A stretch of 64,000 bases of DNA, from contig PMDS01000023.1 in NCBI GenBank assembly GCA_003155655.1, forward strand, positions 1 to 64,000. The letters are read 5' to 3'. Origin of the DNA: Melioribacter sp. GTDB lineage: Bacteria > Bacteroidota > Ignavibacteria > Ignavibacteriales > Melioribacteraceae. Shown here piece by piece: positions 28,080-40,207 of this stretch (the stretch's first letter is position 1; every line of letters starts with the position of its first letter). Position numbers and translations under genes: made by a program. The notes under the pieces are model-generated. The model searched no databases, was not told where the DNA came from, and saw nothing but the letters and a program-made list of their open reading frames with translations.

Positions 28080-28889
28080 ATGATGCAGAATACAGGCTAC
28101 ATTTTTGATATAAAAAAATACTCAGTTAACGACGGACCCGGTATACGTACAACCGTTTTTTTTAAGGGCTGCCCGTTAAACTGTTGGTGGTGCCACAACC
28201 CGGAAAGCCAGCGCGGCGAACCTGAAAAAGTAGATCAATGCACTTTTAGATGGAACCTGTCCAACGATTATTCAAAGCGCAATTCTATCGGCAGCCAGGT
28301 TTTAGTTGAAGAAGTAATGAAAGAAGTCGAAAAGGATCTACCTTTCTATGAAGAATCAAATGGCGGGGTTACCTTTTCCGGCGGCGAACCAATGCTGCAG
28401 GTTGATTTTCTTCATTCCTTACTTTTAGAATGTAAAAAAAAAGATATACAAACAGCAATAGATACTACAGGCTTTACTTCCATTAATGATTTTGAAAAAA
28501 TTTATGATATTACAGATATTTTCCTTTATGATTTGAAATTGATTGATGATAAACTTCATTATAAATATTGCGGTGTATCCAATAAGATGATTCATGAGAA
28601 TCTAAAAATGCTCTCTTCGCAGGGAGAGAAAATTATTTTGCGTCTTCCCATAATTCCAACAATTACTGATACTGAACAAAATATATTTGAGACAATGTCA
28701 TTCATCTCAGCATTAAAAAATATTCAGGAGATTGACCTGCTTCCGTATCACCAATCAGCAAAATCGAAATATGAACGGATGCAAAAGGAAAACAAGGTTG
28801 CAGAACTTATTCCGCCCACAAAAGAATATATGAACGAATTAAGAAATAAATTTTTGCAATTAGATATTCCGGTGAAAATCGGAGGTTAG
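28080..28889 (+). CDS. Glycyl-radical-enzyme activating protein (radical SAM), ferredoxin segment reduced
   Basis: A 269-residue radical-SAM activase that uses a [4Fe-4S] cluster and S-adenosylmethionine to install the glycyl radical on the next gene's product. The cluster motif is CPLNCWWC (about residues 31-38) in the context FFKGCPLNCWWCHNPE, followed by GGVTFSGGEPMLQ and TTGFTS. Many dehydratase activases carry two further ferredoxin-like clusters between these motifs; here the linker (about 40-90) holds only one Cys, so it is of the short PflA form. It directly precedes the radical enzyme (2-bp gap; ribosome site overlaps the stop). Confidence 0.9.
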   Translation: MMQNTGYIFDIKKYSVNDGPGIRTTVFFKGCPLNCWWCHNPESQRGEPEKVDQCTFRWNLSNDYSKRNSIGSQVLVEEVMKEVEKDLPFYEESNGGVTFSGGEPMLQVDFLHSLLLECKKKDIQTAIDTTGFTSINDFEKIYDITDIFLYDLKLIDDKLHYKYCGVSNKMIHENLKMLSSQGEKIILRLPIIPTITDTEQNIFETMSFISALKNIQEIDLLPYHQSAKSKYERMQKENKVAELIPPTKEYMNELRNKFLQLDIPVKIGG

Positions 28890-28891
28890 AT

Positions 28892-31252
28892 ATGAACGAA
28901 AGGATAAAAAAACTTAGACAGCAGTCAATTGATGCCGTGCCAACAATGTCGCATGAGCGCGCGCATTTGTTAACTGAATTTTATAAATCGGGTGAGCCGC
29001 AGAAACATTCAGTGCCCGTTGCCCGTGCGCTTGCTTTCAAATATATATTGGAAAGAAAAGAACTATGTGTTAATGATGGTGAACTCTTTGTAGGTGAAAA
29101 AGGGCCCGCGCCAAAAGCCACGCCGACTTATCCGGAACTATGTGTTCATTCGGAACAGGATTTGGAAATTCTGCATAACCGTGAAAAAGTTTGGTTTAAA
29201 TCTGATGAAGAGACTCGACAAATAATGTTAAAAGAAGTTGCCCCTTTCTGGAAAGGGAAGAGCATTCGCGAAAAAATTCTTGATGAGGTTGATCAAAGGT
29301 GGCGCGATGCATACAACGCCGGCATTTTTACAGAGTTTATGGAGCAGCGCGCTCCGGGACACACTGTAGGGGATGACAAAATTTTTAGAAAGGGGATGCT
29401 CGATTTTAAAAAAGAAATTCAAGATGCAATTAACAGTCTTGATTTTTATAATGACCCGGAAGCATTTACAAAACGTGAACAACTGCAGGCAATGGAAATT
29501 GCAGCAAATGCTTTGATTGTTTATGCACAGCGTTACAGCAAAAAACTTCTTGAACTTGCTGCTAAGGAAAAAAACATCGAGCGTAAAAATGAATTGGAGA
29601 CAATGGCTGGAATATGCAGCCGGGTTCCTGCAAATGCGCCAAAAACATTCTGGGAAGCGCTTCAATATTATTGGTTCGTTCATCTTGGCGTTACAACTGA
29701 ATTAAATACGTGGGATTCATTCAATCCCGGCAGACTTGATCAGCATCTTTATCCTTTTTTCAAACGTGATATTGAAAGCGGACTGCTAACCGAAGAGCAG
29801 GCGCACGAGCTGCTTCAATCTTTCTGGATCAAGTTTAACAATCAGCCGGCGCCGCCAAAGGTTGGTGTAACAGCCCAGGAGAGCAACACCTATACTGATT
29901 TTTGTTTGATAAACATTGGCGGCTTGACTGAAAAGGGTGAAGACGCTTCGAATGAAATGAGCTACATGCTTCTCGATACTATTGAGGAAATGCGTCTCTT
30001 GCAGCCGAGCTCAATGGTGCAGGTAAGCAAAAAAAATCCTGATAGATTACTAAGGCGCGCGCTGAATATAATTAAAACTGGCTATGGGCAGCCGTCAATC
30101 TTTAATACTGATGCGATCATACAGGAATTAACTCGGCAGGGAAAATCAATTATTGACGCGCGGTGCGGCGGCGCAAGCGGCTGCGTTGAAGCCGGTGCGT
30201 TTGGTAAAGAAGCATATATTCTTACAGGGTATTTTAACATTCCTAAGATTTTGGAAATCACGCTCAATAATGGATTTGATCCTTTTACTCAAAAGCAGAT
30301 TGGTCTTAAAACAGGCGACCCAAATTCATTTACTTCTTTTGACGAATTATATGATGCATTTGAAAAGCAGTTCAATCATTTTATAGATATTAAAATAAAA
30401 GGCAGTATTATTATTGAAAGAATCTACGCTCAGTATATGCCTTCCCCGTTTTTATCAATTCTGATTGATGACTGCATAAAGAAAGGAAAAGATTATAATG
30501 CAGGAGGCGCGCGGTATAATTCCTCATACATACAGGGTGTTGGTTTGGGTACAATCACAGATTCATTATCATCAATAAAGTTTAATGTATTCGACAAGAA
30601 AAATTTTACTATGAAACAAATGCTTGAAATCCTTGAAAAAAATTTTGAAAATAAAAAAGAAGAACAGGAGAAGCTTCTGTTTTTTACGCCTAAGTACGGA
30701 AATGATGATGACTATGCAGATGATTTAACGTGCAGGGTCTTTGAAACTTATTTTAAAGCCGTTGACGGCAAGCCAAATACAAGAGGCGGACATTTTAGAA
30801 TTAATCTTCTTCCAACAACCTGCCACGTATATTTCGGAAGTGTTCTTGGCGCTACCCCCGATGGACGCTTTGCTAATGAACCGGTAAGTGAAGGTATTTC
30901 ACCCGTACAGGGTGCTGATGTTCATGGTCCAACCTCGGTTATCAAATCTGCATCAAAGATAGACCATCTAAGAACGGGCGGAACGCTTCTAAATCAAAAA
31001 TTTACTCCCAATTTCCTTGAGACCGATGAAGGTATAGAAAAAGTATTGCAGTTGATAAGAACTTATTTTAAGCTGGATGGGCACCATATTCAGTTTAATG
31101 TTGTTAATGCAGAAACACTGCGCGAGGCTCAAAAACATCCTGAGAAATACCGCGACCTGATCGTACGTGTTGCCGGGTACAGCGACTACTTTGTTGATCT
31201 TGGAGAATATCTGCAGAACGAAATTATCAAGCGAACTGAACATACAGGTTAA
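28892..31252 (+). CDS. hypD: Glycyl radical trans-4-hydroxy-L-proline dehydratase (HypD-type)
   Basis: A 786-residue glycyl radical enzyme. The radical glycine is in VRVAGYSDYF (Gly762), the catalytic thiyl site in SGCVEAGAFGKEAY (Cys431, Glu433). From memory, many stretches match the Clostridioides difficile HypD: FTEFMEQRAPGHTV, LNTWDSFNPGRLDQHL, FGKEAYILTGYFNIPKILE, TPKYGNDDDYADD and LPTTCHVYFG. HypD removes water from trans-4-hydroxyproline to give (S)-1-pyrroline-5-carboxylate, which the P5C dehydrogenase encoded in the same cluster could oxidise to glutamate. The alternatives, glycerol or propanediol dehydratase and PFL, fit poorly. It is oxygen-sensitive, so it should work anaerobically. 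Start ATG with GGAGG. Confidence 0.88.
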   Translation: MNERIKKLRQQSIDAVPTMSHERAHLLTEFYKSGEPQKHSVPVARALAFKYILERKELCVNDGELFVGEKGPAPKATPTYPELCVHSEQDLEILHNREKVWFKSDEETRQIMLKEVAPFWKGKSIREKILDEVDQRWRDAYNAGIFTEFMEQRAPGHTVGDDKIFRKGMLDFKKEIQDAINSLDFYNDPEAFTKREQLQAMEIAANALIVYAQRYSKKLLELAAKEKNIERKNELETMAGICSRVPANAPKTFWEALQYYWFVHLGVTTELNTWDSFNPGRLDQHLYPFFKRDIESGLLTEEQAHELLQSFWIKFNNQPAPPKVGVTAQESNTYTDFCLINIGGLTEKGEDASNEMSYMLLDTIEEMRLLQPSSMVQVSKKNPDRLLRRALNIIKTGYGQPSIFNTDAIIQELTRQGKSIIDARCGGASGCVEAGAFGKEAYILTGYFNIPKILEITLNNGFDPFTQKQIGLKTGDPNSFTSFDELYDAFEKQFNHFIDIKIKGSIIIERIYAQYMPSPFLSILIDDCIKKGKDYNAGGARYNSSYIQGVGLGTITDSLSSIKFNVFDKKNFTMKQMLEILEKNFENKKEEQEKLLFFTPKYGNDDDYADDLTCRVFETYFKAVDGKPNTRGGHFRINLLPTTCHVYFGSVLGATPDGRFANEPVSEGISPVQGADVHGPTSVIKSASKIDHLRTGGTLLNQKFTPNFLETDEGIEKVLQLIRTYFKLDGHHIQFNVVNAETLREAQKHPEKYRDLIVRVAGYSDYFVDLGEYLQNEIIKRTEHTG

Positions 31253-31263
31253 TAAATAATAGC

Positions 31264-31335
31264 ACGCAGATTTTTATGATCTTTTATGATGCTCACTGAT
31301 CATAAATAATCTTAATAGATCATAATGATCAGCGT
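31264..31335. repeat. Intergenic inverted-repeat element with ATGATC motifs
   Basis: The 72-bp segment begins ACGCAGAT and ends ATCAGCGT, an imperfect inverted repeat, and contains several ATGATC/GATCAT tracts in between. It resembles a recurring non-coding element I have seen in Bacteroidota-type genomes. It lies between the radical enzyme and the aminopeptidase. Confidence 0.5.
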
Positions 31336-31367
31336 TCCATTGCATTTTTAAAGAGAGGATAAATATT

Positions 31368-32762
31368 ATGTTTAATTCAAAAACTTACATTAAGCGCAGG
31401 GAAATTTTAAAAAAGAAAATCGGCAAAGGCATTATACTTTTGCTTGGCAATAACGAAGCCCCGATGAATTACGCCGATAACACCTACACATACCGCCAGG
31501 ACAGCACCTTTCTTTACTACTTCGGCATAGACCGCGCGGAACTTGCTGCAGTGATTGATGTGGATGAGAACAAGGAAATTATTTACGGAAATGATTTCAC
31601 TCTTGATGATATTGTCTGGATGGGACCCCAGCCTACAATAAAACATGAGGCAGCCAAGAGCGGTGTAAAAAATATTGGCACATTAAATGATCTTGAAGAG
31701 TTTTGCGGCAATGCTGTTAAGCAGGGAAGGAAAATTCATTTTATTCCACAGTACCGGTATGATAATATTTTCACGCTTCACAGAATTCTTGGAATCATGT
31801 CAAGCCGCATAAACAATTTTGCCTCCACAGAACTTATCAAAGCAATAGCAGAGCAGCGTTACATTAAATCGAAAGAAGAAATTGAAGAGATGGAAAAAGC
31901 TATTGAAGTTGCATACGAAATGCAGACTTCGGCAATGCGCTTTGCCAAACCCGGAATGACTGAACGCGATGTAATGGGCTTCATTGCGGGATTGTCAATG
32001 TCGCTTGGCAGCGGATTATCATTCCCGGTTATATTCTCCCGGCATGGCGAGACTCTGCATAATCATCATTATGATAACATATTTCAGGATGGTGATCTTG
32101 TTGTTAATGATTCCGGCGCTGAATCAGAATTACATTATGCTAGCGATATAACCCGCACTTTCCCTGTAAGCGGAAAATTTACACTGCAGCAAATGGATAT
32201 TTATGAAATTGTTCTTCTTGCCAACCTCACGGGTATTGCAGAAATGAAGCCCGGTGTAAACTTCAAAACTGTTCATCTTAAAGTTGCTGGATTAATTACG
32301 GATGGTATGAAGGCTCTCGGTTTCATGAAAGGTAATACTAAAGAAATTGTTGAAGCCGGCGCGCATGCATTGTTCTTCCCCCACGGGCTCGGTCACCTGC
32401 TGGGGCTGGATGTTCATGATATGGAAAATTATGGCGAGAATAATATCGGCTATGATGAAAAACAAAAACGCAGTACACAGTTTGGACTTAAATCGTTGAG
32501 ATTTGCCAGACCTTTAAAACCGGGAGTAGTGATAACTGTTGAGCCCGGAATTTATTTTATTCCGCAGCTTATAGATAAATGGCAGAAAGAGAAAAAGTTT
32601 ACAGAGTTTATTAATTATACCAAGGTAAACCAGTACAGAAATTTCGGCGGAATAAGAATTGAAGATGATGTTGTTGTTACTCAAAACGGCAGCCGGGTTT
32701 TAGGCAAGCCGATTCCTAAAGCCATTGAAGATGTTGAAGAAGTAGCCTCTGATAAAATATAA
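31368..32762 (+). CDS. Aminopeptidase P-type Xaa-Pro aminopeptidase (M24)
   Basis: A 464-residue pita-bread metallopeptidase with an N-terminal AMP_N domain (about 1-140) and a catalytic domain (about 170-450). Metal ligands are visible: VVNDSGAESELHYASDITRTF (Asp, Asp), FFPHGLGHLLGLDVHD (His), TVEPGIYF (Glu) and IRIEDDV (Glu). The enzyme removes N-terminal residues that precede proline and so frees Pro- or Hyp-containing peptides for the downstream enzymes. RBS AGAGAGGA. No signal peptide, so it is cytoplasmic. Confidence 0.9.
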   Translation: MFNSKTYIKRREILKKKIGKGIILLLGNNEAPMNYADNTYTYRQDSTFLYYFGIDRAELAAVIDVDENKEIIYGNDFTLDDIVWMGPQPTIKHEAAKSGVKNIGTLNDLEEFCGNAVKQGRKIHFIPQYRYDNIFTLHRILGIMSSRINNFASTELIKAIAEQRYIKSKEEIEEMEKAIEVAYEMQTSAMRFAKPGMTERDVMGFIAGLSMSLGSGLSFPVIFSRHGETLHNHHYDNIFQDGDLVVNDSGAESELHYASDITRTFPVSGKFTLQQMDIYEIVLLANLTGIAEMKPGVNFKTVHLKVAGLITDGMKALGFMKGNTKEIVEAGAHALFFPHGLGHLLGLDVHDMENYGENNIGYDEKQKRSTQFGLKSLRFARPLKPGVVITVEPGIYFIPQLIDKWQKEKKFTEFINYTKVNQYRNFGGIRIEDDVVVTQNGSRVLGKPIPKAIEDVEEVASDKI

Positions 32763-32812
32763 ATGGATTATGATTTCTCATCGCACTATCTGAAAATGAA
32801 GGGAGGTACGGG

Positions 32813-33742
32813 ATGAGTCTTTCACGCGGTATTCTTTTGTGGGCTTCTGAAAATCAATGGATGAGGCGGCACGTTCCTACGTGGAAATTTGTTAAGCATG
32901 CCGTTAAAAAATTTATGCCGGGGGAAAATCTTGAAGATGCTCTTGATGCGGCTAAAATTTTTCAATATGATTCAATTCCTGTTATACTTACTCATCTTGG
33001 TGAAAATATAAAAGACCTTTCAGAAGGCGGGGATGTATGCGATCATTACCTTGAAGCAATTGATAGAATAGTTGAGAAGAAACTTGATATTGAGCTTTCC
33101 ATAAAATTGACCCAGCTTGGTTTCGATATTTCATTCGATGAAACTTATTCCCGGTTCAAAAAAATTGCCGCCAAGGTTAAAGAAGAATTAGGGAATATTC
33201 TCTGGATTGACATGGAGGGAAGCTCTTACACTAAGAGAACAATAGATTTCTATAAAAAAATAAAAAGCGAGTTTGATAACATTGGCATTTGCGTGCAGGC
33301 ATATCTTTATAGTACTGAAGCTGATATTAAGGATATATTAGACATCAATCCAAATATTCGTTTGGTAAAGGGTGCTTACAGCGAGCCATCCGGCATTGCA
33401 TTTCCTAAAAAGGAAGATGTGGATAAAAACTATCTGCATCTGGCTAAGATGGTAATGAAAAACATGGCTGAAAAGAAAGCATTTATTGGTTTTGCAACAC
33501 ACGATGAAAATATTTGCGCTCATTTAATAAGAGAGGCAAAACATTACAGCGTTCATAAAGATAAATTTGAGTTCCAGATGCTTTACGGAATAAAACCGGC
33601 TTTCCAAAAAGAAATGAAAAGTCACGGATTCAGGTTAAGAGTATTGATTAGTTACGGAAATTTCTGGTATCCGTGGTACATGCGCCGTTTGGCAGAACGC
33701 CCCGCAAATGTTTGGTTCGTTTTGAAAAATATATTCAATTAA
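32813..33742 (+). CDS. Proline/hydroxyproline dehydrogenase (PRODH fold, FAD)
   Basis: A 309-residue flavin-dependent beta/alpha barrel, the size of monofunctional PRODH. Family motifs: RLVKGAY, FATHD, FEFQMLYGIKP and the substrate carboxylate-binding MRRLAER near the C-terminus. It oxidises proline to P5C, or 4-hydroxyproline to 3-hydroxy-P5C. The Tyr expected in the VYVPYG-type motif (E. coli PutA Tyr540) is replaced by Leu278 in RVLISYGNFWYPW; from the literature this Tyr discriminates against hydroxyproline and is also lost in human PRODH2. Hence a hydroxyproline-oxidising role is favoured. Start follows GGGAGGTACGGG. Confidence 0.85.
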   Translation: MSLSRGILLWASENQWMRRHVPTWKFVKHAVKKFMPGENLEDALDAAKIFQYDSIPVILTHLGENIKDLSEGGDVCDHYLEAIDRIVEKKLDIELSIKLTQLGFDISFDETYSRFKKIAAKVKEELGNILWIDMEGSSYTKRTIDFYKKIKSEFDNIGICVQAYLYSTEADIKDILDINPNIRLVKGAYSEPSGIAFPKKEDVDKNYLHLAKMVMKNMAEKKAFIGFATHDENICAHLIREAKHYSVHKDKFEFQMLYGIKPAFQKEMKSHGFRLRVLISYGNFWYPWYMRRLAERPANVWFVLKNIFN

Positions 33743-33829
33743 AAACTTTGTCACTTAGACACGTTGCGACTTTTTCACTCCAACAGTAGAATTGCAAAGT
33801 AACAGAGTAACCACAAAATTATAGGAATA

Positions 33830-34720
33830 ATGAAATTGAAACCATTAAAAGGAATAATGCCTCCAATTGCAACACCGTTTATAAATGATGAGATAGCTCT
33901 GGACAAACTTTCACATAATTTTACTAAATGGAATACAACGGGCTTAAGCGGTTTTGTTGTAATGGGCTCCAACGGGGAAAGCGTTTTTTTAACCCGCGAT
34001 GAAAAAGTGAAATTAGTTAAATCTGTTAAAAAAAATATTCCTGATGATAAATTATTAATTGCGGGAACCGGCTCCGATTCAATTAAGGAAACAATATCTT
34101 TAACTAATGGCGTGGCAGATTGCGGAGCCGACTATGCATTGATTCTTACTCCGTCTTTTTACAAATCGGAAATGAAGCCTGCTGCGTATATAAAATATTT
34201 TTATGCAGTGGCGGAGAAAGCAAAAATTCCAGTGATAATTTATAATGTGCCGAAATTTACCGGGGTTGATATTGAAGCGGAAACAGTTGCCAAATTAGCT
34301 GAGCATAAAAATATTGTAGGAATAAAAAACAGTTCTGAAAATATCCGCCAGACGCTTGAAATTATTGCTCAAACACCAAAAGACTTTGCAACTATAATAG
34401 GAACAGCTTCTGTTCTTTATCCCGCACTTGCAGCGGGGGCAGTAGGCGGTATACTTGCTCTTGCAAACATTGCACCAGTTGAATGCGTACAAATCCAAAA
34501 ATTTGTTGACGAAGGAAAGCATAAAGAAGCTTTGGAAGTTCAAAAAAGAATGCTGCCGGTTAATAAATCCGTAACTGCTAAGTATGGAGTGGCAGGTTTG
34601 AAATGTGCTATGGATATGCTCGGATATTTTGGCGGGGAGCCGCGCTTACCGCTTTCTGTCTTAAATGACTCTGATAAACAATTGCTTGAGCAAATATTAA
34701 TTAACGCGGAATTAATGTGA
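33830..34720 (+). CDS. 4-hydroxy-2-oxoglutarate aldolase-like (HOGA1/DapA family)
   Basis: A 296-residue class I aldolase of the DapA superfamily. The Schiff-base Lys is in NIVGIKNSS (Lys166) and the catalytic Tyr in VIIYNVP (Tyr138). The chain resembles human HOGA1 more than DapA, by memory: GFVVMGSNGESVFLT, IAGTGSDS, GAVGGILALANI and GLKCAMDMLGYFGG all parallel it. HOGA1 splits 4-hydroxy-2-oxoglutarate into pyruvate and glyoxylate, the late step of hydroxyproline breakdown. It precedes an alanine-glyoxylate aminotransferase, exactly the enzyme needed for its glyoxylate product. Dihydrodipicolinate synthase is less likely here. Confidence 0.82.
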   Translation: MKLKPLKGIMPPIATPFINDEIALDKLSHNFTKWNTTGLSGFVVMGSNGESVFLTRDEKVKLVKSVKKNIPDDKLLIAGTGSDSIKETISLTNGVADCGADYALILTPSFYKSEMKPAAYIKYFYAVAEKAKIPVIIYNVPKFTGVDIEAETVAKLAEHKNIVGIKNSSENIRQTLEIIAQTPKDFATIIGTASVLYPALAAGAVGGILALANIAPVECVQIQKFVDEGKHKEALEVQKRMLPVNKSVTAKYGVAGLKCAMDMLGYFGGEPRLPLSVLNDSDKQLLEQILINAELM

Positions 34721-34762
34721 AATTATTTTATTGTAGTTGTTATTTGAAGAAAAGGAAATTAA

Positions 34763-35878
34763 ATGTCATATAAATCATTCAAACCTGAGAACAGATTTTT
34801 AATGGGACCTGGTCCTTCAAATGTTAATCCAAAAGTTTTGGAAGCAATGTCAAAACTTCCTCTTGGCCATCTGGACCCGCAGTTTATAGAGCTGATGAAT
34901 GATCTCAAGTCGCTTCTTAAGTATACATTCAAAACAGAAAATGAAAATACTTTTGTTCTTTCCGGTCCTGGCTCTCTTGGAATGGAAATGTGTCTTGTTA
35001 ATTTGATTGAACCTGGAGATAAAGTTATTGTCTGTGTTGGCGGTTACTTCGGAAACAGGATGGTGCAGATTGTAGAAAAAATTGGCGGACAGGCTGTTGT
35101 TGTAAAAGAAAAATGGGGAAGGGCAATTGAACCTCAAAAACTTGAAGACGTACTCAATGTAAATCCTGATACAAAAATTGCAGTATTCGTTCATGCTGAA
35201 ACTTCTACAGGCGCGCTATCTAACATTAAGCAGCTTTCCGGAATAGCCCACAGAAAGAGTTGTATTGTTCTTGCTGATGTGGTTACATCACTCGGCGCAG
35301 TAGACATTTATGTTGATGAATGGAATCTTGATGCGGTTTATTCATGTTCACAAAAAGGATTAGCCTGCACTGCTGGAATGTCTCCTGTAACTTTTAGTGA
35401 GCGTGCGGTTGCCTCAATAAAGAATAGAAAAACTCCAATTAAAAGCTGGTTCAATGATTTGAATTTACTTCAGGGCTACTGGAATGGCGGGGCTAAAAGA
35501 ATTTATCATCATACAGCGCCAAGCAACCAGTATTACGGACTGCATGAAGCGTTATTAATTCTAAAAGAAGAAGGAATTGAAAACGCATGGCGCAGGCATA
35601 AAGAAAACAGCGCTAAGATGATTTCCAGACTAAAACAAATTGGTCTTGAGCCGTTTGTGCCGGAAGGAGAAAGAATTCCAAACTTAATTACGGTAAAAAT
35701 TCCTGATGGAATTGACGAAGCTAAAGTAAGAAGCGAACTCTTGAACAAACACAATCTTGAAATTGGCGCGGGACTTGGCGAGCTTGCCGGCAAAATCTGG
35801 CGCATTGGTTTAATGGGCTATAATTCAAATGAAAAGATGATAGATTACTGCATAAATGCGTTGAAAGATGTATTATAA
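34763..35878 (+). CDS. Alanine-glyoxylate aminotransferase-like (AGXT/SPT, class V)
   Basis: A 371-residue PLP-dependent aminotransferase. Features: FLMGPGPSNVNPKVLEAM at the start, HAETSTGAL, VLADVVTSLGAVDIYVDEW and the PLP lysine in SCSQKGLAC. The C-terminal half includes RIYHHTAPSNQYYGLHEAL and ENAWRRHKENSAKM, which by memory parallels human AGXT. It should convert glyoxylate plus alanine (or serine) to glycine plus pyruvate. The gene is 42 bp from the aldolase and translated from AAAGGAAATTAAATG. It may be the last enzyme of the hydroxyproline route. Confidence 0.85.
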   Translation: MSYKSFKPENRFLMGPGPSNVNPKVLEAMSKLPLGHLDPQFIELMNDLKSLLKYTFKTENENTFVLSGPGSLGMEMCLVNLIEPGDKVIVCVGGYFGNRMVQIVEKIGGQAVVVKEKWGRAIEPQKLEDVLNVNPDTKIAVFVHAETSTGALSNIKQLSGIAHRKSCIVLADVVTSLGAVDIYVDEWNLDAVYSCSQKGLACTAGMSPVTFSERAVASIKNRKTPIKSWFNDLNLLQGYWNGGAKRIYHHTAPSNQYYGLHEALLILKEEGIENAWRRHKENSAKMISRLKQIGLEPFVPEGERIPNLITVKIPDGIDEAKVRSELLNKHNLEIGAGLGELAGKIWRIGLMGYNSNEKMIDYCINALKDVL

Positions 35879-35922
35879 ATTTGCAATAAGTTTTACAGCA
35901 GAAAAATGGATATTTTTAAAAA

Positions 35923-36492
35923 ATGAAAAATTTAAAAGTAGAGAAGAAGAGTAATAATCCGGATAAAAATATTCCGTGGAGAGATAATGCTTTTTCTATG
36001 ATGGCATTATATTCAATACTAACTGGCATGGTTGGTGTTTTTTTAGCAGTAATAATTCCCGATAAAGAAATAGAGGATAATTGGTATTGGCCAGTTGGTT
36101 TATTGTCCCTTTCAATAATTTGCTTTGTTTTAGGAACAGAAAAATATAGTGATGCTCTTGATGAGGATGATGTTGATAAACATCTCTCATGGTTTCTAGT
36201 TTATAATTTTGGTGTCATCTTGATGTTCTTCGGAATCGCAGCATATATCTTTTTACATTATCATTTATGTTTTCCAATATATAAAACAGATGAATATTGG
36301 AATCTGATTCCATTTCTTGTTGCTTTTATTGCATCATATAAATGGTTGAAGGACATATATTATTTACTTTTTCAGAATACTAAAGATTATGAAGAGTACA
36401 AAAAGGAGTTGTTAGGTCGAAAACGCCCAAAACTGGATCCAGATTGGTTAATGAAATTACACGTGGACATAAGAAAATTGTTACGCAGGTAA
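35923..36492 (+). CDS. Four-helix membrane protein of unknown function
   Basis: A 189-residue protein with a charged N-terminus, about four hydrophobic segments (residues 25-46, 55-70, 88-112 and 125-145) and a basic, positively charged C-terminal tail. No family was recognised. It ends 1 bp before the SET-domain gene and the two look co-transcribed. The pair interrupts an otherwise metabolic run of genes, so it may be an insertion with its own role. Confidence 0.45.
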   Translation: MKNLKVEKKSNNPDKNIPWRDNAFSMMALYSILTGMVGVFLAVIIPDKEIEDNWYWPVGLLSLSIICFVLGTEKYSDALDEDDVDKHLSWFLVYNFGVILMFFGIAAYIFLHYHLCFPIYKTDEYWNLIPFLVAFIASYKWLKDIYYLLFQNTKDYEEYKKELLGRKRPKLDPDWLMKLHVDIRKLLRR

Positions 36493-36493
36493 A

Positions 36494-37021
36494 ATGAGAA
36501 GAAGATTTAAAAATGTTATAGTTGAACTCCGGCCATCTAAAATTGATCCTAAAGGTGTTGGAGTATTTGCAATCACCAATATTAAACAAGGGACAAAAAT
36601 TTTTGATGGAATATATCTTGAAGATTTTAATAATCTCATCTCTTGGAAGATAGTTAAAAATCTGCCCGAAATGACACTTCAAAAAATTAATGCATTTTGT
36701 GTAGGTACACCAAAGGGTTTTTTTCCACCAGAAAACTTTGATTTCAATAATCTTTCAATTGAATGGTATTTGAACCATTCTTGCGACGGAAATATTGGAT
36801 TTAATAAGGATGGGGACTTTATTGCCATAAAGGAGATTAAACCCAATGATGAACTTTCTTATGATTATGGATTAGTTGAATCAAACCCCAAATTTAAAAT
36901 GTTATGTAACTGTGGTAGTTATAATTGTAGAAAAAAAATCACAGGTAATGATTGGATAAAATTATTAGATGATCCTGAAAAGAAAAAATTCATGCATCTC
37001 TATTTGAGAAGTAAAATATGA
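36494..37021 (+). CDS. SET-domain protein lysine methyltransferase-like
   Basis: A 175-residue protein with the SET core: GVGVFAITNIKQGTKIFDG at the start, NHSCDGNIGF (S-adenosylmethionine/pseudoknot motif, residues about 95-104), DELSYDYG and a post-SET cysteine cluster in CNCGSYNC followed by RKKITG. SET enzymes methylate protein lysines; bacterial ones are uncommon and their targets often unknown. It is short and complete, without extra domains. The start is 1 bp after the membrane-protein stop, and a strong terminator follows it. Confidence 0.8.
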   Translation: MRRRFKNVIVELRPSKIDPKGVGVFAITNIKQGTKIFDGIYLEDFNNLISWKIVKNLPEMTLQKINAFCVGTPKGFFPPENFDFNNLSIEWYLNHSCDGNIGFNKDGDFIAIKEIKPNDELSYDYGLVESNPKFKMLCNCGSYNCRKKITGNDWIKLLDDPEKKKFMHLYLRSKI

Positions 37022-37050
37022 ATTCACTTTAGAAATACATTTTGAACATT

Positions 37051-37094
37051 ATTATTACGTCTTTTCCGTTACAGAAAAAACGTAATAATTTTTT
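37051..37094 (+). terminator. Rho-independent terminator after the SET gene
   Basis: A 10-bp perfect outer arm (ATTATTACGT / ACGTAATAAT), continued by TTTTC / GAAAA after one mismatch, and followed by a T run on the plus strand. It ends the transcript that includes the SET gene. Confidence 0.8.
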
Positions 37095-37216
37095 AGAGTA
37101 TTATATTTGGTTGTTGTAGCTATTCCATGACGAGTTAAATAGATTGTGTACACACCAAAGATTTTTCCTAATTTTCGAATATTAAAAAACAGCTTTAGAA
37201 CTAGAAAGGTACTTAT

Positions 37217-38854
37217 ATGTCAAATGCAAAGTTTAACATTCCGCTTCCTCCTAATGAACCCGTAAAAAATTACGCTCCAGGTTCACCGGAAAAAGCAGCT
37301 CTCAAATCAAAGCTTCAGGACTTATCAAATCAGCAGATAGATATTCCAATAATTATCGGTGGTAAGGAAATCAGGACAGGCGAAACAGACAATTGTGTAA
37401 TGCCGCACGATCACAAACACGTTCTTGCAAAATATCATAAGGTGGGAACCAAAGAAGTTAACGACGCGATTGAATCATCAATGAAAGCGCATAAACAGTG
37501 GTCACGTATGGACTGGTACGACCGTGCTTCGGTTTTCATGAAAGCCGCTGATCTGCTTTCACTTACCGAATGGCGTTATACTATTAATGCCGCGACAATG
37601 CTGGGACAAAGTAAAAATCCTTTCCAGGCAGAAATTGATGCTGCTGCCGAGCTGACTGACTTTTTCAGATTTAACTGCTACTATGCAATGAAAATTTATG
37701 AAGAACAGCCGCTTCACTCACCGTTTGGAATGTGGAACAGGATGGAATACCGCGGGCTTGAAGGATTTATTTTTGCTGTGGCGCCGTTTAACTTTACATC
37801 AATCTGCGGCAACCTGCCCACTTCGCCTGCATTAATGGGAACAACTGCATTATTAAAACCTGCTTCAAGCGCGGTGTACTCCGCTTACTGGGTTATGAAA
37901 TTACTCGAAGCTGCAGGACTGCCGGAAGGCGTAATTAATTTTATTCCCGGTTCAGGCGCAAAAGTTGGTAATCCTGTTATGGATTCTGAATACTTTGGCG
38001 GAATTCATTTTACGGGCAGCACCCCAACATTTCAATCAATGTGGAGAACCGCAGCAAATAATTTAGCTAATTATAAAGCATATCCAAGAATAGTTGGTGA
38101 AACAGGAGGAAAGGATTTTATTTTTGCTCATGCTAGCTCCGATCTGACAGCTTTGGGCGTCGCATTAATACGCGGTGCATTTGAATACCAGGGACAGAAA
38201 TGTTCAGCCGCTTCACGCGCGTACATTCCAAAATCTATCTGGTCTAAACTGAAAGATTATGTTGTAAGCGAATTAAAATCCGTTAAGATGGGTGATCCGT
38301 CGGATTTCACAAATTTCTTTAATGCAGTAATTGATAAGGCAGCATTTACTACAATAACAGACTATATAAAATTTGCAAAATCATCTAATGAAGCGGAAAT
38401 TATTTCCGGTGGCGGCTTTGATGATTCAAAGGGCTACTTTATCGAACCTACAATTATAGTTACAACAAATCCAAAATTTAAAACAATAGAAGAAGAAATT
38501 TTTGGACCTGTACTTACAATCTATGTTTATGATGATAATAAATATGAAGAGACACTCCATATTTGCGATGAAACTTCTCCATTCTCGTTGACAGGTGCAA
38601 TCTTTGCACAGGACAGGTATGCAGTTGAAACAGCAAATAAAATTTTATTAAACGCGTCAGGTAATTTTTATATAAACGATAAACCCACAGGCGCCGTAGT
38701 TGGTCAGCAGCCGTTTGGCGGTGCGCGTGCAAGCGGTACAAACGATAAAGCTGGCAGCTACCTTAATTTACTGCGCTGGGTTTCTGCAAGAACAATTAAA
38801 GAAAATTTTATTCCGCCTCACGATTACCGTTATCCTTTTATGTCGGAAAAATAA
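37217..38854 (+). CDS. pruA: 1-pyrroline-5-carboxylate dehydrogenase (group 1)
   Basis: A 545-residue NAD-dependent aldehyde dehydrogenase that oxidises P5C (as glutamate semialdehyde) to glutamate; it can also oxidise the 3-hydroxy form to 4-hydroxyglutamate. Motifs: APFNFTSICGNLPTSPALMG, FTGSTPTFQSMWR, GETGGKDFIF, catalytic Cys in YQGQKCSAASRAY, and the C-terminal EEIFGPVLTIYVY, GQQPFGGARASGTNDKAG. The length and these pieces match ALDH4A1-type P5CDH. It lies 3' of the SET terminator, with its own start, but completes the pathway of the upstream genes. Start ATG after AGAAAGG. Confidence 0.93.
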   Translation: MSNAKFNIPLPPNEPVKNYAPGSPEKAALKSKLQDLSNQQIDIPIIIGGKEIRTGETDNCVMPHDHKHVLAKYHKVGTKEVNDAIESSMKAHKQWSRMDWYDRASVFMKAADLLSLTEWRYTINAATMLGQSKNPFQAEIDAAAELTDFFRFNCYYAMKIYEEQPLHSPFGMWNRMEYRGLEGFIFAVAPFNFTSICGNLPTSPALMGTTALLKPASSAVYSAYWVMKLLEAAGLPEGVINFIPGSGAKVGNPVMDSEYFGGIHFTGSTPTFQSMWRTAANNLANYKAYPRIVGETGGKDFIFAHASSDLTALGVALIRGAFEYQGQKCSAASRAYIPKSIWSKLKDYVVSELKSVKMGDPSDFTNFFNAVIDKAAFTTITDYIKFAKSSNEAEIISGGGFDDSKGYFIEPTIIVTTNPKFKTIEEEIFGPVLTIYVYDDNKYEETLHICDETSPFSLTGAIFAQDRYAVETANKILLNASGNFYINDKPTGAVVGQQPFGGARASGTNDKAGSYLNLLRWVSARTIKENFIPPHDYRYPFMSEK

Positions 38855-38863
38855 CCCTTCCTA

Positions 38864-38889
38864 TTATCCTCCCCGCATGGGGAGGATAA
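38864..38889. terminator. Perfect 11-bp hairpin between P5CDH and S37 peptidase genes
   Basis: TTATCCTCCCC / GGGGAGGATAA with a 4-nt GCAT loop, lying in a 60-bp intergenic gap. No T run follows, so it may be a terminator, an attenuator or a small repeat element. Confidence 0.55.
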
Positions 38890-38914
38890 AATAGTTGAAT
38901 ATATTGGAGAGCTT

Positions 38915-40207
38915 ATGAAACGTAACTTCCGGTTTTTATTTATTGCAATACTTTTCATCTCAACATCTGTTTTTCCCCAGAACGATTCCGCACTTCTTAA
39001 AAAGTTAAAATCATTCAAAGAAATAACGGATATAACACCGGTAAAACATGATACATCTTATTCAGAAGCCTATGAAATGATGATTACCCAGCCGCTTGAT
39101 CATAACAAACCAAACGGGCTAAAATTCAAGCAGAGGATTTTCCTTTCGCATAAAAATTATGAATTGCCAATGGTTTTTATTACTGAAGGGTATGCGGCTG
39201 ACAATAACTATAATTCCGAGCTTGCAAAGATTCTTAAATCCAACCAGTTGATTGTTGAGCATAGATATCTCGGAAAATCCGTTCCGGCAAAAATTAATTG
39301 GAAATATCTGAACATTAAACAAGCTGCGGCAGATCATCATGCAATAGTTCAGCTTCTCAAAAAAATATATACCGGTAAGTGGGTTAGCACGGGAATAAGC
39401 AAGGGCGGGCAGACCTCGTGTTACTTTAAAAGATTTTATCCTGAGGATGTAGATGCTGCTGTACCATACGTGGCGCCAATTAACGTTGCGCAGGAAGATC
39501 CGCGCATTTACATGTTCTTAAACACCGTTGGTACGGAAGAATGCAGGAATAAAATAAAACAATTTCAACGCGCCTTCTTAACCAAACGCGAAGAAATAAA
39601 GAAATTATTAATGCAGGATTGTGAGAAAAACAATACCCGCTTAGCATGGGATTACGATTTTGTCCTTGAGTACATGGTTCTTGAATATTCTTTTGCTTTC
39701 TGGCAGTGGGGACAGACAAAGTGTGAAGACATACCTAGCCCCGATGCACCCGCCGAAGCTTTATATTCTCACATGATAAAATCAAATCCGATTTATTTCT
39801 TTACGGAACAAGCTATGAAATATTTTGGTCCGTTCTACGTACAGGCTTACAACGAAATTGGTTATTATGGATATGACCTTTCGCCATTTAAGGATTTGCT
39901 GAAGGAAATTAAAGACGGCTCAAACATCATTCTTGTTCCCAAAGATGCCAAAATTAATTATGACTGTAGTGTACTGCAGGATATAAATACATGGCTTCAA
40001 AAAAAGGGGAACAACATTCTATATATTTATGGCGGTAATGATACCTGGAGCGCTACATCCATTCAACTGCTTGGGCAGACTAATTCTGTTAAGATGGTAA
40101 AGAAAGGCGGATCGCACGGAACGCGCATTTCAAGTTTTGATGGGGCGGAAAGGGAAAAAATATACTCTACGCTGGAAAACTGGCTTGGAATAAAAATTAA
40201 AAGATAA
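38915..40207 (+). CDS. Secreted S37-family prolyl tri-/tetrapeptidyl aminopeptidase-like protein
   Basis: A 430-residue secreted serine peptidase. Signal peptide at about 1-21 (ending VFPQ). The alpha/beta-hydrolase nucleophile motif GISKGG (Ser162) sits in STGISKGGQTS, followed by RFYPEDVDAAVPYVAP, which by memory matches the Streptomyces PS-10/S37 tripeptidyl aminopeptidases that release Xaa-Yaa-Pro tripeptides. The C-terminal GGSHGTRISS could contain the catalytic His, and GGNDTWSA an acid. A collagen-type peptide source (repeating Gly-Pro-Hyp) fits both this enzyme and the neighbouring hydroxyproline genes. Start follows GGAGAGC. Confidence 0.8.
   Translation: MKRNFRFLFIAILFISTSVFPQNDSALLKKLKSFKEITDITPVKHDTSYSEAYEMMITQPLDHNKPNGLKFKQRIFLSHKNYELPMVFITEGYAADNNYNSELAKILKSNQLIVEHRYLGKSVPAKINWKYLNIKQAAADHHAIVQLLKKIYTGKWVSTGISKGGQTSCYFKRFYPEDVDAAVPYVAPINVAQEDPRIYMFLNTVGTEECRNKIKQFQRAFLTKREEIKKLLMQDCEKNNTRLAWDYDFVLEYMVLEYSFAFWQWGQTKCEDIPSPDAPAEALYSHMIKSNPIYFFTEQAMKYFGPFYVQAYNEIGYYGYDLSPFKDLLKEIKDGSNIILVPKDAKINYDCSVLQDINTWLQKKGNNILYIYGGNDTWSATSIQLLGQTNSVKMVKKGGSHGTRISSFDGAEREKIYSTLENWLGIKIKR

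Follow-up and report, generated by a model that had tools for sequence, protein, structure and literature searches.

The window, by which we mean the whole stretch of 64,000 nucleotides that was analysed, belongs to contig C126 in a genome of 4.6 Mb. Between positions 28080 and 40207 it carries ten consecutive genes, all on the + strand. Eight of them had been named in an initial annotation made from the sequence alone, and these proved to be intact open reading frames on that strand and in that interval, with family searches agreeing with the names. The row opens with a radical SAM activating protein for glycyl radical enzymes, the predicted HypD activase (28080..28889), and the dehydratase HypD itself (28892..31252). 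There follow an M24 aminopeptidase P-like peptidase (31368..32762; Pfam AMP_N and Peptidase_M24), a PRODH paralogue (32813..33742; Pfam Pro_dh), proposed here to be a hydroxyproline dehydrogenase, a predicted 4-hydroxy-2-oxoglutarate aldolase resembling HOGA1 (33830..34720), and an AGXT-like class V aminotransferase (34763..35878), which is proposed to convert glyoxylate to glycine. The next two genes encode a membrane protein (35923..36492) with no Pfam family above cut-off, the membership of which is uncertain, and a SET-domain protein (36494..37021; Pfam SET, 37.1 bits), the membership of which is doubtful. The row ends with a P5C (glutamate gamma-semialdehyde) dehydrogenase, P5CDH (37217..38854), and an S37 (PS-10) prolyl peptidase (38915..40207; Pfam Peptidase_S37, 218 bits) whose N-terminus, judged by eye from the sequence, is signal-like.

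The intergenic gaps amount, in order, to 2, 115, 50, 87, 42, 44, 1, 195 and 60 bases. Eight terminator-like sites were predicted on the + strand, all of them inside genes and none between the ten, and a promoter scan gave no useful signal, with 57 sites against 46.7 expected. Since gaps of 1-195 bases and the lack of an intergenic terminator-like site allow for one transcript, expression of all ten genes as a single unit is compatible with the layout. The membrane protein and the SET protein have no counterpart in the loci of relatives; the SET-domain gene starts 1 base past the membrane-protein gene, between the aminotransferase and P5CDH genes. Comparisons covered 57 genomes: that of the window plus 56 others from the same genus, family and order. 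Being related, they are not independent observations.

HypD and the activase

The glycyl radical enzyme scored 1320.6 bits against the NCBIfam model NF043068 (cut-off 1100). Among solved structures it gave 1062 bits with 6vxc and 408.7 bits with HplG (7vua), and a hydroxyproline lyase of the HplG type, known from a further anaerobic hydroxyproline route, was rejected on this comparison. All ten residues of C. difficile HypD that were mutated in the structure paper, as given in an excerpt of PMC7077986, are identical in the window protein (H160, D278, S334, D339, F340, C434, E436, Y450, T645 and G765); their positions were placed on the 6vxc alignment by means of text and primer context from that excerpt. 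By these matches the enzyme is HypD, as had been claimed. Its activase has NF043069, the T4HPD activase model, as the best NCBIfam match, at 321 bits and so under the cut-off of 425, and the activase gene ends 2 bases upstream of hypD.

The likeness to the C. difficile HypD system lies in the whole-length match, the ten residues and the activase gene, which here adjoins hypD. The two differ in that a copy of proC adjoins hypD there (excerpt of PMC12899673), whereas here genes for a peptidase, a PRODH, an aldolase and an aminotransferase come after hypD, and ProC is encoded elsewhere in the window genome, outside the cluster. A second HypD subtype, 54-55% identical, was seen in L016, L017, L018 and L019, with the activase downstream and not upstream.

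Aldolase, aminotransferase and leucine-type PRODH

The best solved relative of the aldolase is human HOGA1 (3s5n) with 222 bits, the highest-scoring chain other than HOGA reaching 158, and the equivalents of HOGA1 S77, N78, Y168, K196 and S198 are kept. According to an excerpt of PMC3188589, Lys196 and Tyr168 of HOGA1 are catalytic, Ser77 takes part in a relay, and Asn78 and Ser198 are unique substrate-binding residues. The GSNGE loop of HOGA1 type and the Lys-x-Ser motif are present in all 23 genomes found to have the aldolase, the window's included. Lys-x-Ser, which contains Ser198, is non-specific, since many distant aldolases in other phyla have it too, and the more informative residue is Asn78. 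A distant aldolase of G063, 44% identical, reads Gly-Ser-Asn-Ser-Glu at the loop, and a DapA-like gene adjoining the G047 cluster has a GTTGE loop and Lys-Glu-Ala. The top match, the loop and the retained residues favour the original reading as a HOGA1-like enzyme over DHDPS, KDG aldolase or Pyr4H2C deaminase; KDG aldolase was rejected on the best solved relative and the kept residues. A plasmid search with the aldolase returned 1331 records, all below 60% identity, and gave no lead.

For the aminotransferase, the closest solved relative is an alanine-glyoxylate aminotransferase (1vjo, E 2.1e-114), which agrees with its predicted AGXT-like character. The protein has a GPGP motif and a lysine that we take to be the PLP lysine, and it reached 188.9 bits against the NCBIfam BhcA model, under the cut-off of 650.

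The PRODH scored 227.5 bits against the NCBIfam model for Thermus PRODH, under its cut-off of 500. At the position of PutA Tyr540 it has leucine (Leu278), as do all 22 cluster-type paralogues among the 57 genomes. The general PRODH keeps tyrosine in 14/14 genomes read, and three of these genomes (G000, G001, G013) have both types; one shortened row without the motif (L078) was left uncounted. Tyr540 restricts E. coli PutA to proline, according to an excerpt of PMC3718742, so the residue that holds the enzyme to proline rather than hydroxyproline is missing from the cluster-type PRODH of all 22 genomes. Residues D133, R183, R291, R292 and E295, which concern substrate and flavin and whose PutA numbering was matched by motif, are invariant in an alignment of 14 cluster sequences. 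Human PRODH2 has serine at the Tyr540 position, compared with leucine here, a difference that speaks against the parallel; the original study of this PutA residue is reportedly that of Ostrander in 2009.

In a quick tree of 137 PRODH sequences, from which hits that were shorter than 200 residues, lacked the motif or were identical had been dropped, the 81 Leu-type rows all fell on the same side of a branch with SH-aLRT 100. The window PRODH falls in a subclade of 32 rows (SH-aLRT 99) whose members come from genomes of its own class, from named Ignavibacteria and from a single record titled Bacteroidetes; the PRODH of L139 (Ignavibacteriales DeMMO6_29) lies within the window's own family, and the nearest named relatives among the matches listed are mostly Ignavibacteriales metagenome genomes, which suggests an Ignavibacteriales host. 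Members of the Leu-type clade also occur in Acidobacteriota, Gemmatimonadota, Chloroflexota and further groups (L144-L201 and more).

A locus search with the PRODH alignment took in the best 80 loci of at least 588 relatives, of which 54 are of the Leu and 26 of the Tyr type. Forty-seven of these 54 lie outside Ignavibacteria and Bacteroidetes, mainly in Acidobacteria, Gemmatimonadetes and Chloroflexi. Within this sample of the best 80, the stretches fetched for the 47 contain no close aldolase (L151 shows a match at 28%), and they showed together one Pro_racemase-family gene, a single AGXT match (46%) and a single POT gene. L145 and L150, which are Leu-type loci of Ignavibacteria from the same 80, are also without the aldolase. 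Ten neighbour genes at seven Leu-type loci yielded this same Pro_racemase-family gene as their sole hydroxyproline gene. The Leu-type PRODH is tied to the hydroxyproline gene set in 22/22 cases among the 57 genomes but not in other phyla, and the scan led us to drop the idea that leucine at the Tyr540 position proves the enzyme specific for hydroxyproline. Since Leu-type enzymes of other phyla occur without the aldolase, the substitution permits, but does not prove, use of hydroxyproline.

Co-occurrence in related genomes

Scored at E 1e-40, the aldolase is present in 23 of the 57 genomes and missing from 34. All 22 genomes with the cluster-type PRODH (more than 300 bits to that of the window; a G054 copy split over two contigs was counted once) and all 17 with AGXT are among those 23, AGXT being absent from six of them, including the near-complete G007. 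For PRODH as a whole, a match at E 1e-20 or better was obtained in 56/57 genomes, and a distant general PRODH in 55, that of the window included. The hypD gene occurs in 19/57 genomes, 15 of which have the aldolase; this count takes in contig-edge fragments of G006 and G022 and leaves out a 46-residue remnant in G010, a short second fragment in G024 and other glycyl radical enzymes (270-350 bits). The 57 genomes represent 41 genera, 12 of them with the aldolase, and within these aldolase genera fall 11/11 of the genera with the cluster-type PRODH, 9/9 with AGXT, 8/12 with hypD and 8/9 with a Pro_racemase gene.

A later test covered 395 genomes from the phylum, with the aldolase cut-off at E 1e-75. 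It found the aldolase in 22, all of the same class and nine of them previously unseen. The aldolase loci of these nine have the GSNGE loop in 9/9 cases, an adjoining AGXT in 8/9, a Leu-type PRODH in 7/9 and HypD in 4/9. An aldolase without an adjoining Leu-type PRODH was met in G030, G136 and G437. As the PRODH-HOGA-AGXT arrangement recurs both in relatives and in the later-fetched test genomes, the grouping of these genes is more than chance, and the linkage of this module with hydroxyproline genes that the initial annotation had put forward is supported. The same annotation had suggested a search for hypD beside M24, HOGA1-like, AGXT-like and S37 genes. The M24 gene follows hypD in all seven genus genomes with a full-length hypD (the window's own counted) and loci with aldolase and AGXT recur, but the S37 peptidase was found in the clusters of some relatives only.

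The M24, PRODH and aldolase genes are kept in G009 and G011, where hypD is missing, and G010 retains a 46-residue C-terminal HypD remnant (L025; G010:C169:3342-3470) between M24 and a metallo-beta-lactamase-fold gene, which is evidence, read from sequence, of hypD decay. These cases indicate that the dehydrogenase-aldolase branch stands without HypD. In one locus of G007 (L092:7255-9752), an AccI-like restriction endonuclease and an Eco57I-type methyltransferase lie between M24 and PRODH, and L090 and L094 have genes sized like this pair.

The identity of P5CDH, as originally assigned, is upheld by 782.5 bits against TIGR01236 (cut-off 613.6), a model which we take to denote the ALDH4A1 type, and at E 1e-60 the window genome has no second match. 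Its membership in a dedicated locus fared less well: a close copy (at least 63% identity) is present in 36/57 genomes, and 15 of these 36 are without the aldolase, which indicates that the enzyme is common to ordinary proline breakdown. P5CDH was therefore rejected as a marker of the cluster.

Several accessory genes were found in relatives. A Pro_racemase-family gene scored above the Pfam cut-off in 11/57 genomes (G017, below it, was left out), ten of them aldolase-bearing, and in 8/11 it lies at the aldolase or hypD locus. For four such genes that were scanned, the best model was trans-3-hydroxyproline dehydratase, below its cut-off. Among the 12 copies in the 11 genomes, ten have the Cys/Thr pair that characterises human L3HYPDH, an extra G030 copy has Cys/Cys, and one is shortened before the second site. 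Two clusters (G001, G136) include a POT peptide transporter, and two (G001, G012) a prolidase-like M24 enzyme. The genes for trans-3-hydroxyproline, prolidase and peptide uptake would fit a supply of collagen peptides.

Proposed use of hydroxyproline and alternatives

We consider it likely that the cluster serves a two-route use of hydroxyproline from collagen-like peptides in Ignavibacteriales; the reactions, their dependence on oxygen and the joint expression of the genes are predicted from families, active-site residues and co-occurrence. The S37 peptidase outside the cell and the M24 peptidase inside it would release proline and hydroxyproline, with the POT transporter and the prolidase-like M24 enzyme joining peptide breakdown in some relatives. 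When oxygen is lacking, activated HypD would dehydrate hydroxyproline to P5C, to be turned into proline by ProC or into glutamate by P5CDH. With a respiratory chain at work, the Leu-type PRODH would oxidise hydroxyproline to 3-hydroxy-P5C, which P5CDH could convert to 4-hydroxyglutamate and an aminotransferase to 4-hydroxy-2-oxoglutarate; cleavage of the latter by the HOGA-like aldolase would yield pyruvate together with glyoxylate, from which the AGXT-like enzyme would form glycine. The window genome has two COX1-family genes, which makes aerobic respiration of the host plausible.

The aminotransferase step between 4-hydroxyglutamate and 4-hydroxy-2-oxoglutarate had been marked as missing from the cluster. 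It is possible, though we think it doubtful, that the AGXT-like enzyme closes this gap by aminating glyoxylate with 4-hydroxyglutamate as the donor, giving 4-hydroxy-2-oxoglutarate and glycine. This would create, together with the aldolase, a loop fed by glyoxylate, yielding one pyruvate and one glycine per hydroxyproline with no outside amino donor, and it would mean that bacteria have rewired the mammalian route and combine it with HypD for periods when oxygen is absent.

An alternative, which we regard as unlikely, is that hydroxyproline is the business of HypD and the peptidases alone. The Leu-type PRODH would then burn proline made by HypD and ProC, and the aldolase and aminotransferase would handle glyoxylate or another 2-oxo acid. 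The AGXT and aldolase families are broad, and in three genomes named above no Leu-type PRODH adjoins the aldolase. Moreover, when the genomes of 30 of the 54 Leu-type loci (from the best 80 of at least 588) were searched, 25 of them from outside Ignavibacteria, the Leu-type enzyme was the sole PRODH in 14 of the 25, genomes of unstated completeness, as would suit an enzyme of proline breakdown. Against this, a general PRODH is encoded in the window genome as well, as in most of the 57, the cluster-type PRODH and AGXT are found only in aldolase genomes, and the aldolase retains the HOGA1 residues. That the hypD-M24 and PRODH-HOGA-AGXT groups are two unrelated units, neighbours by chance and not jointly used, seems very improbable. 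They share one locus in G000, G001, G004, G005, G007, G013, G019, G105, G121 and G422, and most hypD genomes have the aldolase; on the other side, hypD is on a separate contig in G012, G030 and G055 and occurs without the aldolase in G023, G024, G041 and G042.

Scarcely credible to us is the reading of the aldolase as DapA or as the Pyr4H2C deaminase of the Lhp/Hyp pathway, with hydroxyproline passing through the usual epimerase route. It draws on the fact that Pyr4H2C deaminases are DHDPS-like and located in Hyp clusters (excerpt of PMC6608401), and on a score against NCBIfam dapA of 202.9 bits, just under the cut-off of 206.15. However, DapA is unlikely for a gene absent from 34/57 genomes, and it was rejected on this absence, on HOGA1 as the best solved relative and on the HOGA1 loop. 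Two DHDPS-family genes near 4-hydroxyproline epimerases on Spirosoma and Sinorhizobium plasmids encode deaminase-like proteins 25% and 28% identical to the aldolase (278 and 229 residues compared, respectively); the Asn78 position is occupied by Leu in the former and by Met in the latter. The Spirosoma protein does retain the Ser198 equivalent, but HOGA1, which tops the relatives of the window protein, is not among its 60 best solved relatives. On identity and loop in these two comparisons the deaminase was rejected, and so was an epimerase route in the window genome, where the Pro_racemase (epimerase) family has no match.

The two-route reading, which we prefer, may be set beside known systems. 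With the mammalian mitochondrial route (PRODH2, P5CDH, AspAT, HOGA1, AGXT) the locus shares the enzyme families and the HOGA1 active-site residues. Unlike that route, it is a bacterial gene cluster and contains no AspAT, which in mammals acts on 4-hydroxyglutamate (excerpt of PMC8779045); its PRODH is nearest to short bacterial PRODHs and has leucine at the Tyr540 position. An excerpt of PMC5144071 contrasts the two kinds of route, the products being pyruvate and glyoxylate in mammals but 2-oxoglutarate in bacteria. The bacterial Lhp/Hyp pathway, consisting of an epimerase, D-Hyp dehydrogenase, Pyr4H2C deaminase and KGSA dehydrogenase, resembles the present proposal in that clustered genes serve to use hydroxyproline aerobically and in that a DHDPS-family enzyme takes part. 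It differs in that the window genome has no epimerase-family match, the DHDPS-family member belongs to another subgroup, and the predicted products are pyruvate and glyoxylate, not 2-oxoglutarate.

Bacterial routes described in the excerpts at hand are that of HypD under anaerobic conditions (PMC12899673) and that from D-hydroxyproline to 2-oxoglutarate (PMC5144071, PMC6608401). No such cluster was found in the titles and abstract openings of the open-licence PMC papers that literature searches listed. The parts and the mammalian pathway are known, and it is their combination in a bacterial cluster with HypD that appears to be new. If the proposal is correct, bacteria would possess another hydroxyproline route, with mammal-like glyoxylate and glycine formation, encoded beside HypD; a substrate would be suggested for the widespread Leu-type PRODH subfamily; and Ignavibacteriales would probably make use of collagen debris from animals. 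For HOGA1 and AGXT, the two enzymes concerned in primary hyperoxaluria, there would also be bacterial counterparts that are easy to assay.

A separate matter is the additional Pro_racemase-family gene of G030 (L126; G030:C38:207473-208444). Its product, the copy with Cys/Cys, is 64-66% identical to annotated 4-hydroxyproline epimerases, and in view of this resemblance G030 may also have the standard epimerase route.
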